From contig JAADJD010000007.1 in assembly GCA_013150955.1 (NCBI GenBank), forward strand, positions 1 through 22,348: DNA of 22,348 nucleotides, in the 5' to 3' direction. Shown piece by piece: positions 3,156 to 22,348 of this stretch. The notes under the pieces were generated by a model. It did no database searches and was not told the origin of the DNA. It saw nothing but the letters and a program-made list of their open reading frames with translations. The position numbers and the translations under genes were made by a program. The stretch is from Calditrichota bacterium (lineage in GTDB: Bacteria > Calditrichota > Calditrichia > RBG-13-44-9 > J042). Within the stretch, counting starts at the first letter, position 1. The number at the start of each line of letters is the position of its first letter.

Positions 3156-3345
3156 GACTGTGAATAGCATGAATGAACCCAGATGATGCATTAGATCACG
3201 AATGACCGGAATGAACACAAATAAAAATGATAAATCCACTGGATTATATCCGGATGAAAATTGGATTCCGGGGGTTATTTCCTATTTTTGTGGATATTTC
3301 TGGATGAATTCATGTGACTCGCGATATAATGCATCATTTAGGTTT
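3156..3345 (+). repeat. Dispersed palindromic repeat: complete copy plus a left-end fragment
   Basis: The complete copy spans about 3178-3345: CCCAGATGATGCATTAGATC, then CACGAATGACCGGAATGAAC at the left end, and ATTCATGTGACTCGCGATAT then AATGCATCATTTAGGTTT at the right. A 22-base fragment of another left end (GTGAATAGCATGAATGAA) abuts it, the same double arrangement as at 1355-1565. Confidence 0.8.
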
Positions 3346-3407
3346 CATAGCGGGAATGGAATTCGGATGATGTATCCAGACTGACAATTTTTATCGGTGA
3401 ACATTTC

Positions 3408-12437: not shown

Positions 12438-12450
12438 CTAAAATGATTAA

Positions 12451-12612
12451 CCCAGATCATGCATTAGCCTACGAATTACACGAATTAACACAAATAAAAA
12501 AATGCACTTAATTCTATCTGGATGGAAAATGTTTTCCCGGATATATTCGCTATTTTGTTGATTTTTTCGAATGCATTCGCGTGATTTGTGGTTTAACGCT
12601 TTATTTGGGATT
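12451..12612 (+). repeat. Dispersed palindromic repeat, complete copy
   Basis: The left end is CCCAGATCATGCATTAGCC then TACGAATTACACGAATTAAC; the right end is GAATGCATTCGCGTGATTTG then TGGTTTAACGCTTTATTTGGGAT split around the centre. The orientation is the same as the copies at 1401 and 3178. It begins 13 bases after the tRNA-Sec. Confidence 0.85.
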
Positions 12613-12856
12613 ATTAAGTTTTAACACGGTAAATATTTGTTAAAAATCACGATGACGTATGATTCGATAATCGTATTTTAGGCGGTGAAATTGGTAGCCA
12701 TCCTGAAAATGGATGGAAGACATAACTTTGGTATCACACCTTGCAACATTTTCTGTGTGTGAATCTTGATCCAAAGTAAAAATTATAGGAATCATTTTTG
12801 TGCCATCTTGGCAACCATTTGATCAAATGACCTTGTAAGCGATCTCATCATCATAA
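12613..12856. other. Unique gene-poor stretch between repeats, with a tiny minus-strand ORF pair
   Basis: This 244-base stretch is not part of the repeat. On the minus strand a 51-residue frame runs from ATG at 12795 to TAA at 12640-12642. It ends in a basic, aromatic-rich segment ('HFQDGYQFHRLKYDYRIIRH'). A 20-residue minus-strand frame starting MMMRSLTRSFDQ at about 12853 ends in a TGA that overlaps the ATG at 12795. The ATGA overlap looks like translational coupling, and the C-terminal 'YDYRII' faintly recalls RelE-type toxins, but neither frame has a good ribosome binding site and I recognise no family. It may be a degraded gene remnant or chance. Confidence 0.2.
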
Positions 12857-13207
12857 ACCCGAATCATGCAATAAACTGCGAATCATGAGAGTGAAGCCCA
12901 GAAATATCAATAAAATCGCGAATAAACCTCGAGGCCCATTTTCATCCAGAAATAATCCAATTTATTTTATCCCAGATAATGCATTAAACCGCGAATCACG
13001 CGAATGAACACAAAAAATATCAATAAAATCGCGAATAAACCTCGAAGCGAATTTTCATACAGATCTAAATCAATGGATTTTATTGTTTTTATTTGTGTTA
13101 ATTCGTGCAATTCGTGGTCTAATTTGTGTTAATTCGTGCAATTCGTGGTCTAAAGCACAATTTGGGTTTATATGTTCATTCGTGGTCTTATGCATCATCT
13201 GAGATAA
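12857..13207 (-). repeat. Composite of two or more dispersed repeats in reverse orientation
   Basis: A partial copy (about 12857-12967) and a longer copy (12971-13177) both read as the reverse of the 1401-1565 element: CCCAGATAATGCATTAAACC, then GCGAATCACGCGAATGAACA, then AAAAAATATCAATAAAATCG, and at the far end TTAATTCGTGCAATTCGTGG. An extra terminus (ATTCGTGGTCTTATGCATCA then TCTGAGATA, 13178-13207) closes the block. The internal AATATCAATAAAATCGCGAATAAACCTCGA segment occurs twice, showing that two elements are stacked in the same orientation. Confidence 0.8.
13091..13152 (-). repeat. Perfect 31-bp tandem duplication inside the composite repeat
   Basis: Two identical 31-base units run 13091-13121 and 13122-13152, each beginning ATTTGTGTTAATTCGTGC and ending AATTCGTGGTCTA. 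They duplicate one terminus of the dispersed repeat. Exact identity indicates a recent slip or conversion event. Confidence 0.9.
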
Positions 13208-14991: not shown

Positions 14992-15118
14992 ATGATCCAA
15001 GGAATGTTAACCCTTTAAATCCATTTCCCGGGATGTGTTGAATAAAAACTGCACCGATGGGCAGATTGGAGATTCCCACTGCCCTGGAAAATGATATTAT
15101 TCTTCGTCGAATGGTTTA

Positions 15119-15457
15119 TCCTAAATCATGCACGAAACCACGAATCACTCGAATTCATTCAAAAAATATCAACAAATAGTTGTACCCAAATTATGCAATA
15201 AACCGCGAATAACGCGAATGAAACCAAGAAATATCTACAAAATCGCTAATAAACCCTGGAACTCATTTTCATCCAGACACAATCCTTCTATTGGTGTTAA
15301 TTCGTGTAATTCGTAGGCTATTGATTAATCTGGGTTGAATATACTCGGGAACACATTTCATTCAGACATAATCAAATAGATTTTATTGTTTTTTTGTGTT
15401 AATTCGTGTCATTCGTAGGTTAAAGCATAATCTGGGTTTAAAGCACAATTTGGGATA
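15119..15457 (-). repeat. Composite of dispersed repeats in reverse orientation
   Basis: Stacked, more degenerate copies: left termini at about 15119 (TCCTAAATCATGCACGAAAC) and about 15183 (CCCAAATTATGCAATAAACC then GCGAATAACGCGAATGAA), and right termini at about 15295-15345 (TTAATTCGTGTAATTCGTAG) and 15395-15457 (TTAATTCGTGTCATTCGTAG, then GCATAATCTGGGTTTAAAGC). The two right ends mirror the two left ends, as expected for one element inserted into another. The short open frame at 15128-15316 lies inside it and is not a gene. The flanks 14992-15118 and 15458-15591 hold nothing I recognise. Confidence 0.78.
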
Positions 15458-19442: not shown

Positions 19443-19501
19443 GGGGGGGATATTGGTGTTGGGTGACGCGGAATCTTCGCGTACGAATTATCACGGATAA
19501 A

Positions 19502-19723
19502 CCCGGATTATGTAATAGCCTACGAATTACACGAATGAAAGCAAATAAAAATAACATAATCCATTGAATTATATCTGGATAAAAATGTACTCCAGGGTTT
19601 ATTGGCGATTTTGTGTTTCATTCGCGTGATTCATATTTTAATGAATTATTTAGGATTAACTATTTTGTTACTATTTTTCGAATAAATTCGCGGGATTTGC
19701 GGTTTAATGTACTATTTTTGAAT
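19502..19723 (+). repeat. Dispersed palindromic repeat: complete copy plus an extra right half
   Basis: The complete copy is about 19502-19657 (CCCGGATTATGTAATAGCC then TACGAATTACACGAATGAAA; right end TTCATTCGCGTGATTCATAT then TTTAATGAATTATTTAGGAT). A second right half follows directly (19658-19723: AACTATTTTGTTACTATTTT, then AAATTCGCGGGATTTGCGG and TTTAATGTACTATTTTTG). It fills the gap between the convergent ends of the regulator gene and the CRISPR-associated gene. Confidence 0.82.
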
Positions 19724-19746
19724 AAGGATTTTTTTAAACATGAGGC

Positions 19747-21666
19747 TCATTTATCAAGTGGATTAGGAAATGGTTTCCCTTTTAAATTGCGATAGAATTC
19801 AAATCCTTTTTCGGTAGGATACTTCCGTGAAGTATTCCCCTCATTAATGTCTAAAATTTTACTCAAAACTTCTACATTGTTCAAATTAAGAAATTCTTTT
19901 CCTGTTTTTTCCTTTATCCAGACTAAAAAGGAATTTAAATATTCAAATTTATTAAAAATATTTTTGGTAGATCCTCCATTTTTGTTTTTCATTTGTTCAA
20001 AAGCTATATACTTTGATGTTAAATCATTTTCTACTTGCGCTTCTATTATTTCAATTCTGATGCTCCCAAATCCAATAGGTTTTCCCATACCCAATTTATG
20101 GTGTAAATTTCCATGAAGTTCTAATCCCCAAATAAGCATACCCAATTCTTCTTGAGCAAGATTTTGGAAATCAATTCGAAATTCAAAAACATTACCGTCA
20201 AGAACTGGTCGCACTTGACTGCGCATTTCTTCTTGTTCTCTATAATTGGTGGGAACACAGTAATATAATTTATTTTGATTCGGATGGTGGAAATAAAACT
20301 TGCGTCCTCGAATTTCAACCGGGCCCTTCCATTTTATATTCTTCGTTCCATCTTTATTTTTTGGATCTTCTGGATTGCCTTTGTTATCCAATTTAATTCC
20401 ATCGTAGTTACGCACAACGTCTTTATCTGTCGGATCTTTTAAATAGATATTACAAGAAGTAGGGTGAGGTGTGCCTAATAGCTTAATTGCCCAATAATCT
20501 TTTTCAGGGCCAGCGCCTTCCGTATGGATGGCATCCGAAATTTGAATGCGAGAACGCAAAGCCTGTTTTTCACCTGTAAAGCCAAACAACCGGCATACCG
20601 GACAGAGAAATTCTAAAGTTTCGCACTTTTGCAAACCCATTTCTTTGATTAAATCTCCGCGACTGGTATCGTAGTAAACTCGGGGTACTTCCACATAAGA
20701 AATCTTGTGAGCCCATTTATCGCCATTATCATCAGTTTTACCTTCTTGAAAATAAATTAGCATGCCTTTTTTGAGTGGCTTGCGTGGCGGGCTTTTCATG
20801 AAATTTCGATTTCTGTTTTGAGGGAACTCTAATTGTTCTTCAACGATTCGTTGATAGTCCTCTACCTCTTTTTTAGTAAAATAATAAATTTCTTTGCTGT
20901 CCAATGGAAAAAACACCCGTTCTCGTTTTTTCATCGGTATGGTTTTACCGGTTATTTTTAATTTGCCCTCGTACCAACCAGAAGCTGAAATTGAAGAAGT
21001 CGCATAATTTTTGACTAAGTAGAAAGGACCTATGATTGGTGCTTTTCTCGAGGTTTTATATTTTTCAATTTCTTCGATTTCAGTCCAGATAATATCGCCA
21101 TTTTGCTTACCAGAAGGTATAAATTTGATGGTATGCATTTTATTATTGTTTTTATTTATAATTTCTAAAACCTGCTCTCCTCCCTCCCCAGGTATCGCGA
21201 TCCAGGCCCTTTTCATTGCCCGGATTTTCCCAGGTTTAGCGTCTGTTGGGAGCTCTAATATTTCACCTGCTATCACTTTTGCTTTGATATCGCGATAGTG
21301 TAAAGGCGATTCATCAAAAACCGAAAAGCATGAACCAGTAGCCGCTTCCAGAACGGAACGTAACATACCACGGATTGAGCTGCCCGGAATAGCGGGTTTC
21401 CCATTGATTTCAAAGAAGTCGATTTTCTTAGGGGCTTCTCCTTCGTGGCGTTTCCCACCGATAAACAGTGGGGTTAATGTTGTGATCTCACAAACAAGAT
21501 ATCCTGACAGTCCAGAAAATTTTGCCAAAGAAGGGGCTTCTGATTTAAGTTCAGAACAGTTTTTGTCATGGGGAACGAATTGGTAGGGATTGTTTTCAAA
21601 ACCCCATTGATTTGTATTGTTTGATGATCGATGTCTTTTGGATTTATTCTTTTCTCTCTTCGCCAT
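19747..21666 (-). CDS. CRISPR-associated RAMP protein, TIGR03986 type
   Basis: The product has 639 residues. An N-terminal basic, Asn-rich tail (1-20) is followed by a RAMP (Cas7-like, RRM-fold) region: 'GYLVCEITTLTPLFIGG' (55-71) and 'AIPGSSIRGMLRSVLEA' (92-108). A large central region contains 'EFLCPVCRLFGFTGEKQALR' (352-371), with a CxxC pair that may bind zinc. The C-terminal glycine-rich RAMP loop is 'LHHKLGMGKPIGFGSIRIEI' (521-540), followed by a helical tail to 639. The order and the unusual size match the TIGR03986 family found with type III systems; ordinary Csm3/Cmr4 backbone proteins are about half as long. It would act in a crRNA-guided effector complex; whether it cuts RNA cannot be told. 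AGGGAG lies five bases upstream of ATG. The start is 11 bases after the stop of the membrane-protein gene, so the two form an operon. Base composition is much more AT-rich than the other genes here, suggesting horizontal transfer. Confidence 0.85.
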   Translation of the reverse strand: MAKREKNKSKRHRSSNNTNQWGFENNPYQFVPHDKNCSELKSEAPSLAKFSGLSGYLVCEITTLTPLFIGGKRHEGEAPKKIDFFEINGKPAIPGSSIRGMLRSVLEAATGSCFSVFDESPLHYRDIKAKVIAGEILELPTDAKPGKIRAMKRAWIAIPGEGGEQVLEIINKNNNKMHTIKFIPSGKQNGDIIWTEIEEIEKYKTSRKAPIIGPFYLVKNYATSSISASGWYEGKLKITGKTIPMKKRERVFFPLDSKEIYYFTKKEVEDYQRIVEEQLEFPQNRNRNFMKSPPRKPLKKGMLIYFQEGKTDDNGDKWAHKISYVEVPRVYYDTSRGDLIKEMGLQKCETLEFLCPVCRLFGFTGEKQALRSRIQISDAIHTEGAGPEKDYWAIKLLGTPHPTSCNIYLKDPTDKDVVRNYDGIKLDNKGNPEDPKNKDGTKNIKWKGPVEIRGRKFYFHHPNQNKLYYCVPTNYREQEEMRSQVRPVLDGNVFEFRIDFQNLAQEELGMLIWGLELHGNLHHKLGMGKPIGFGSIRIEIIEAQVENDLTSKYIAFEQMKNKNGGSTKNIFNKFEYLNSFLVWIKEKTGKEFLNLNNVEVLSKILDINEGNTSRKYPTEKGFEFYRNLKGKPFPNPLDK

Positions 21667-21677
21667 AATATCTCCCT

Positions 21678-22348
21678 TTAAATAGGGTGGGTAATAGGTT
21701 TTTCTTCCCAGAAGATCTGGAGGAAGATGCCAATGCTGAGTGCAATCGGGAAATAAGCTAGCAACCGAATGGGGTCGTAAAACCCAAAAAGACCTTCGAC
21801 TATGATAACTTGGTTCAGTTGTATTTCTGGATCCAAAACAAATATAAAACTGAAAAGGTCGAATAATAATAGGCCAATAATGAGGGAATAAATTAATCCC
21901 AAAAACAAAATCACGAGTGATCGGACAGCGGCCTGCTGGATGTTGTCTAAATTATTGTAAACCTCCAGGAATAAATACAGGTAACTGAAACAAAAGGAAA
22001 AAAAAGATAATCCAATAAGTACTTTGTACTCAAATTCAAAAAGCCATTCCCATATTTCTTGTGTCATAAATAAAGGTATATAACCTATGATGATTCCACC
22101 TATTAATCTGGGTAAAAACAATTTATAACCTAAAAACTCTTTTTTAAGGCAACTTTTATACAAAGCAAAAATTAAAAAAAGAAAAAAGCTGAATATTGAC
22201 AGTAATTCAATGATATTAACAATAGGTATATAGCAGAAAAGATTTGAAATTTTTTGTTTAAAAATTTCATTCATATCAAAAAAAATTGAACGAAAAGGTA
22301 GTGAGATAACAAATCCCCAGTCGCCATGTATAATTATGGGAATAATTA
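21678..22348 (-). CDS. Multi-spanning membrane protein next to the RAMP gene, 5' end outside the window
   Basis: I recognise no family. The first in-frame ATG is at 22274 (198 residues from there), but the same frame stays open for a further 24 codons to the window edge ('IIPIIIHGDWGFVISLPFRS...'). No ribosome binding site precedes ATG 22274 (it follows a run of eight T), so the gene most likely begins beyond the window and is partial here. Counting from ATG 22274, hydrophobic segments lie at about 19-41, 54-73, 84-106, 118-150 and 172-190. The cytoplasmic or periplasmic loops are short, and the tail is 'IFWEEKPITHPI'. No CARF, nuclease or HEPN motif is visible. It is AT-rich like the RAMP gene and ends 11 bases before it, so the two are co-transcribed. 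Membrane proteins are known partners of type III CRISPR loci; a channel-like or membrane-anchoring role is only an inference. Confidence 0.65.
   Translation of the reverse strand, partial: IIPIIIHGDWGFVISLPFRSIFFDMNEIFKQKISNLFCYIPIVNIIELLSIFSFFLFLIFALYKSCLKKEFLGYKLFLPRLIGGIIIGYIPLFMTQEIWEWLFEFEYKVLIGLSFFSFCFSYLYLFLEVYNNLDNIQQAAVRSLVILFLGLIYSLIIGLLLFDLFSFIFVLDPEIQLNQVIIVEGLFGFYDPIRLLAYFPIALSIGIFLQIFWEEKPITHPI

Follow-up and report, generated by a model that had tools for sequence, protein, structure and literature searches.

Known effectors of type III CRISPR systems usually combine a sensor and an output in one polypeptide. Among those that act at the membrane, Cam1 (a CARF-TM protein) and Cap1 are gated by cyclic tetra-adenylate (cA4) through a CARF or CARF-like domain, which is carried together with a few transmembrane (TM) helices in the same chain, Csx23 joins an N-terminal TM part to a C-terminal cA4-binding domain, and the CorA-type SAM-AMP effector serves types III-B and III-D. 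Cam3, encoded directly downstream of a CARF gene and possessing a poorly conserved soluble domain, was reported in III-B only and always behind Cami1 (CARF-RelE), and its authors considered an accessory role possible because of this association (Hoikkala et al., 2024; PMC11229360); beyond this single report, no literature on Cam3 and type III CRISPR was found. Here we analyze the membrane protein gene that lies on the minus strand at the end of a 22,348-nucleotide contig (JAADJD010000007.1, C57 in our numbering, hereafter the window) from a Calditrichota bacterium (GCA_013150955.1; 4.07 Mb in 66 contigs), the window being this one entire contig. Our results indicate that this gene is a member of the PADLOC family Mem_01, a family probably published as Cam3, and that its locus is III-D-like in a genome of the Calditrichota type.

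The PADLOC profile of Mem_01 (PDLC01155), described as "Membrane protein (6TM) with a globular domain at N-terminus", matches the window protein with an E-value of 6e-8 over positions 328-430 of its 440. The first-pass annotation of this DNA had considered the protein an unrecognized one with at least five membrane segments and no known motif. Five hydrophobic segments are indeed visible (Kyte-Doolittle hydropathy 1.8-2.9), and nothing in Pfam or NCBIfam rises above the cut-off, but the protein does match a PADLOC family and closely resembles the published Cam3 (PMC11229360), so that the absence of a motif holds for Pfam and NCBIfam and not for PADLOC. No sequence in the PDB matches the window protein or the family, and the Pfam family DUF2391 was rejected as its identity (E=0.0047, under the cut-off and in only two of 11 members). 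Mem_01 itself is a catalogue entry that gives neither a mechanism nor a partner, and no mention of it was found in the literature.

Members were gathered without regard to genomic context and by two routes. The first relative, in a genome of the same order (G015), sits within a cmr operon. Comparison of three divergent members revealed a motif at the extreme C-terminus (WE[DE]KP[IV]T.P, at the stop codon), from which the DNA pattern TKBGARGANAARCCNRTNACNSANCC was derived and run against 84,980 species genomes. Once translated, the matches gave 12 stretches with [WF]E[DE]KP[IVM]T[EHDQ]P[LI] at a stop codon, two of them being the members already known from G015 and G023. The Mem_01 profile independently recovered eight of the ten genomes of the DNA-pattern members and added two further members (G608 and G534) among 395 genomes of one other phylum and one true member (G836) among 82 genomes of another; a hit in G824 was a false positive of this search. 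L038 (a 17-residue match only) and L101 (a weak mid-profile match) were excluded. The family thus comprises 16 members, the window and 15 homologs, every member, full or partial, having the C-terminal motif no more than two residues from the stop, and no homologs were found in viral contigs or plasmids. At the sequence level, a motif shared at the stop codon in 12 genomes, most of them also matched by the Mem_01 profile, indicates a family resemblance that exceeds chance.

Thirteen of the 16 members, including the window, are located in type III loci: two in III-A (L024 and L027), five in III-B (L030, L032, L035, L089, and L100), and six in III-D-like loci with a TIGR03986 gene downstream (the window, L026, L034, L036, L039, and L088). 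The link with type III CRISPR proposed by the first-pass annotation is therefore supported, homologs not being found mainly away from CRISPR loci and no housekeeping permease family having been matched. The idea that these proteins are transporter- or permease-like, their CRISPR link being incidental, would draw on the weak DUF2391 match and on three members (L033:2499-7584, L028:5024-6928, and L040:1-483) that show no CRISPR genes nearby, although the upstream side is cut off in L028 and L040. Nevertheless, these three form a sister clade of their own, marked by a long insertion that separates TM5 from TM6, the type III members span several phyla and three subtypes despite having been gathered irrespective of context, and no known transporter family is matched in Pfam, NCBIfam, or the sequences of the PDB, while fold searches with models of modest confidence gave nothing significant. 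This explanation is thus already disfavored, and we consider it highly improbable. In L033, the gene adjoins an NtrC-type response regulator and a 584-residue protein without a recognized family; perhaps the sister clade represents the same membrane output in another signaling system.

The most constant neighbor of the family is a CARF gene, located directly upstream in all nine type III loci where that side is visible and either overlapping the membrane protein gene or separated from it by at most 21 nt (spacing -8 to +21 nt). These CARF proteins are small (241-265 residues) and lack an effector domain. Those of the CARF7/APE2256 type match just the CARF half of the CARF-RelE profiles, whereas plasmid-borne Cami1-type controls, of 380 residues in Allochromatium and 373 in Allocoleopsis, match them end to end. 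The partner in both III-A loci is instead of the CARF1 (Csx1) type, without HEPN. One membrane protein family pairs with two CARF clades, CARF7 in III-B and III-D and CARF1 in III-A. Every visible Cas10 of these loci keeps the cyclase motif GGD[DE].

The family shares with Cam3 the same layout, the position directly downstream of a CARF gene and the poor conservation of the soluble domain, and it is very likely the same family, likened by description and not by sequence. Two differences must be mentioned: Cam3 was reported in III-B only and always behind Cami1, whereas the family here is distributed in III-A, III-B, and III-D, and the CARF protein encoded upstream in nine of nine relatives is devoid of RelE. 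The likeness to Cam1 and Cap1 would be that of membrane effectors under cA4 control in type III systems, but the proteins studied here have about six TM segments and the sensor is a separate gene, no CARF domain being found in any full-length member. Csx23 is also a type III membrane effector; in contrast to it, the soluble part is N-terminal here and the proteins end 9-11 residues after the last TM segment, leaving no counterpart of the Csx23 arrangement. Finally, the CorA-type effector, a membrane effector of III-B and III-D, belongs to another family; no sensor domain is recognized, and no CorA family was found among the Pfam matches of the window or of the family members.

We propose that the CARF protein and the Mem_01 protein form a split membrane effector gated by cyclic oligoadenylate, in which the sensor and the membrane part are separate proteins; from the sequence evidence, we put the probability of this reading at about 0.5. 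Cas10, with its intact GGD[DE] motif, would recognize the target RNA and make cyclic oligoadenylate, and the small CARF protein encoded just upstream would, as expected from its family, bind this messenger. Considering the translational coupling and the predicted topology, the CARF protein could then contact the cytosolic N-terminal domain, the invariant cytosolic C-terminal tail, or both, and the membrane domain, by analogy with Cam1, Csx23, and the CorA-type effectors, may open a pore or otherwise disrupt the membrane, leading to depolarization and growth arrest. The position behind a CARF sensor in the relatives suggests that the protein may damage or depolarize the membrane upon virus detection, and the lack of an enzyme domain in the CARF partners of the examined loci points to the membrane protein itself as the output. 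We would more tentatively, and at somewhat less than even odds, extend this proposal to a two-protein, messenger-gated module that moves between III-A, III-B, and III-D and swaps CARF clades, the enzyme-less CARF acting through the membrane protein and the invariant cytosolic tail being part of the gate.

The published interpretation of Cam3 as perhaps accessory, because it is always found with Cami1 (PMC11229360), would lead to a different role, in which the membrane protein serves as a membrane anchor or localization factor for the CARF protein or the CRISPR complex, or as a modulator of another effector, and does not itself cause membrane damage. The adjacency to RAMP or Cmr subunit genes in many loci would fit such a role. 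However, the CARF partners lack RelE or any other effector domain in nine loci, leaving no effector to assist within the gene pair, and conservation is concentrated in the TM core and tail rather than in the soluble domain, which makes an accessory role rather unlikely in our opinion.

A further possibility concerns the CARF protein, which could be a Crn1-like ring nuclease switching the signal off, with the membrane protein being the effector and detecting the messenger directly by its N-terminal domain. Crn1, a CARF protein that stands alone, is a member of CARF7 (PMC12409355). APE2256 proteins of 275 residues of the 7pq2 type are likewise hit by a CARF7 profile of the partners (E=1.6e-6), but the PDB sequence nearest to the partners, 8phb, is an APE2256-family protein of greater length and is matched in its CARF part only (E=2e-13). 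We take 7pq2 to be a Crn1-type ring nuclease and 8phb to be Cami1. Moreover, the N-terminal domain of the membrane protein is poorly conserved, unlike a ligand-binding domain, the III-A partner belongs to a sensor clade (CARF1, Csx1-type), and ring nucleases need no coupling to one particular effector. Consequently, we regard the ring nuclease explanation as unlikely.

Several points nevertheless weigh against the split effector or limit its basis. CARF7 does contain ring nucleases such as Crn1 (PMC12409355), so that the partner could be an off-switch, and an accessory role was suggested for Cam3 by Hoikkala et al. (2024; PMC11229360). The sister clade formed by L028, L033, and L040 shows no CRISPR genes nearby. 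In the window, the contig ends before the N-terminal domain, which is not visible, and the same is true of the CARF partner: searches of the assembly with the CARF7 (PF09651) and CARF1 (PDLC01818) profiles found nothing, and the segment carrying this CARF is therefore either unassembled or encodes a CARF of another type. The family tree is too weakly resolved to assign a CARF clade to the window copy, and several relatives are contigs of metagenome-assembled genomes cut close to the membrane protein gene. Moreover, the confidence of the AlphaFold2 models is modest: they are predicted as all-helical and confident in the TM core only, with a mean pLDDT of 61 for the full-length L036 protein and 69 for the window fragment. 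Profile and structure searches had been recommended by the first-pass annotation; the former retrieved Mem_01, while fold searches with these two models against the PDB and viral folds gave no significant match, a result that does not imply a new fold.

Another gene pair offers a parallel to the proposed separation of sensor and effector. In L088 (4282-5981), a CARF_m1 open reading frame (ORF) adjoins a separate PIN-domain ORF, where PADLOC knows a CARF-PIN fusion, and this pair is a precedent for a split sensor and effector in the same III-D operon. In the III-A locus L027 (3941-5847), the two genes directly after the membrane protein gene encode a coiled membrane protein (383 residues) and a lipoprotein-like protein (252 residues), both without a PADLOC match.

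The window gene, an ORF at 21678-22346 (minus strand), is truncated by the contig end and therefore 5'-open. It presents 222 visible codons covering the end of TM1, TM2 to TM6, and the C-terminal tail, as supported by the Mem_01 match, the alignment, and the TM segments. Its first visible residues, IIPIIIHGDW, align with LLPVLLGHDL in L036 and thus with the last part of TM1 in full-length relatives, so that the ATG at 22274 probably lies inside the gene rather than at its true start; according to the alignment, the soluble N-terminal domain (about 125-200 residues in relatives) and most of TM1 are absent from the window copy. Following the family numbering, TM2 (IVNIIELLSIFSFFLFLIF; hydropathy 2.49) lies at 22167-22223, TM3 (1.84) at 22065-22121 with a near-invariant PR[LM] motif at 22104-22112 (P and R at least 90% conserved), TM4 (2.04) at 21966-22022 with the invariant Tyr of YLxxEV, TM5 (2.91) at 21861-21917 with an invariant Ser (YS in most members), and TM6 (1.93) at 21708-21764 with the conserved A..xG...Q..W, all on the minus strand. 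The tail WEEKPITHPI (21681-21710, minus strand) carries the family signature at the stop codon and is predicted to be cytosolic from the positive-inside pattern. In the full-length relatives L088, L036, L024, and L035, six TM segments follow the N-terminal domain, and six is the usual number among full-length members, although some have four, L089 retaining the last four only. Loops rich in Lys and Arg alternate, so that the N-terminal domain, the TM2-TM3 loop, the TM4-TM5 loop, and the C-terminal tail are predicted to be cytosolic. The conserved positions (PR[LM], Y, R, S, A..xG, Q, W, E, K, T, and P) lie in the last four TM segments and the tail, and the N-terminal domain is poorly conserved across the alignment.

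The next gene downstream encodes a type III CRISPR RAMP protein (Cas7-like; 19747-21666, minus strand), assigned to TIGR03986 with an E-value of 7.2e-101, over the NCBIfam cut-off. The coupling of both genes, as noticed in the first-pass annotation, is clear from their shared strand, the 11 nt that separate the stop codon (21678-21680) from the RAMP ATG at 21666, and the Shine-Dalgarno-like AGGGAG between them (21672-21677, minus strand). The emphasis placed there on the RAMP gene was nevertheless misdirected. TIGR03986 is present in 27 of 385 genomes, and only at the window does the membrane protein gene lie within about 1.5 kb of it; the other 26 TIGR03986 loci in relatives have none at this distance, and TIGR03986 was rejected as an obligate partner. 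Conversely, members are found without an adjoining TIGR03986 in III-A and III-B. The constant partner is the upstream CARF gene (nine of nine loci), which in the window would lie beyond the contig end. For the III-D-like loci, TIGR03986 was identified by profile in the window, L091 (the same as L039), L026, and L034, by PADLOC Cas7-type matches in L036, and by similarity to the window RAMP in L088. The window protein is closest to the TIGR03986 proteins that neighbor family members (407-159 bits, versus no more than 109 bits for the remaining proteins in the comparison), and since the Mem-neighboring TIGR03986 proteins are the most alike while 26 loci lack the membrane protein, the CARF-Mem-TIGR03986 order looks like the inherited arrangement of one III-D variant, TIGR03986 not being generally tied to the family. 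The RAMP protein belongs to the same CRISPR complex as one of its subunits, and it is probably no direct partner of the membrane protein. The TIGR03986 protein of Bacillus sp. 165 (L034:576-2876) has an N-terminal cold-shock domain.

Two cas10 genes are present in the genome, both near contig ends. The first is located at the end of contig C5 (L047:4896-13396), where a reverse transcriptase gene, cas1, cas2, CRISPR arrays, cas10, a Csm3-like RAMP gene, and a Csx10 gene (TIGR02674) run off the contig; this Cas10 is small (565 residues) and has GGDD but no HD domain. The complete operons of L088, L090, and L091 show this gene order in their first half and are also the closest in sequence; it is therefore probable that the window carries the far end of the C5 locus, with several kb between them unassembled. 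In the relatives, the intervening segment consists of cas11, two RAMP genes, csx19, another RAMP gene, the CARF gene, and the start of the membrane protein gene.

The second type III system, at the end of contig C17 (L046:2068-11705), comprises cas6, cmr1, cas10 (1012 residues, GGDD), and cmr3-6, followed by an ORF of which the first 68 residues (MTTYFIAIATGQNVANIPP...) precede the contig end and which may encode a CARF nuclease. In addition, the intergenic gaps of the window contain imperfect repeats of 45-60 bp of the AATTCGTG.AATTCGTAG type on both strands (109-198, 1338-1568, 3172-3346, 12445-13170, 15114-15440, and 19496-19724), resembling a repetitive extragenic palindromic (REP) or miniature inverted-repeat transposable (MITE) element.

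If true, the interpretation of the CARF and Mem_01 proteins as a two-protein module would make Cam3/Mem_01 an effector and not an accessory protein, and the sister clade without CRISPR neighbors would represent the same membrane output connected to a different sensor. A conserved CARF protein without an effector domain, paired with a separate membrane protein across three subtypes and two CARF clades, would demonstrate that the sensing of a messenger and killing at the membrane can be modular, and the Mem_01/Cam3 family would gain a directly testable role in a minimal two-gene system.
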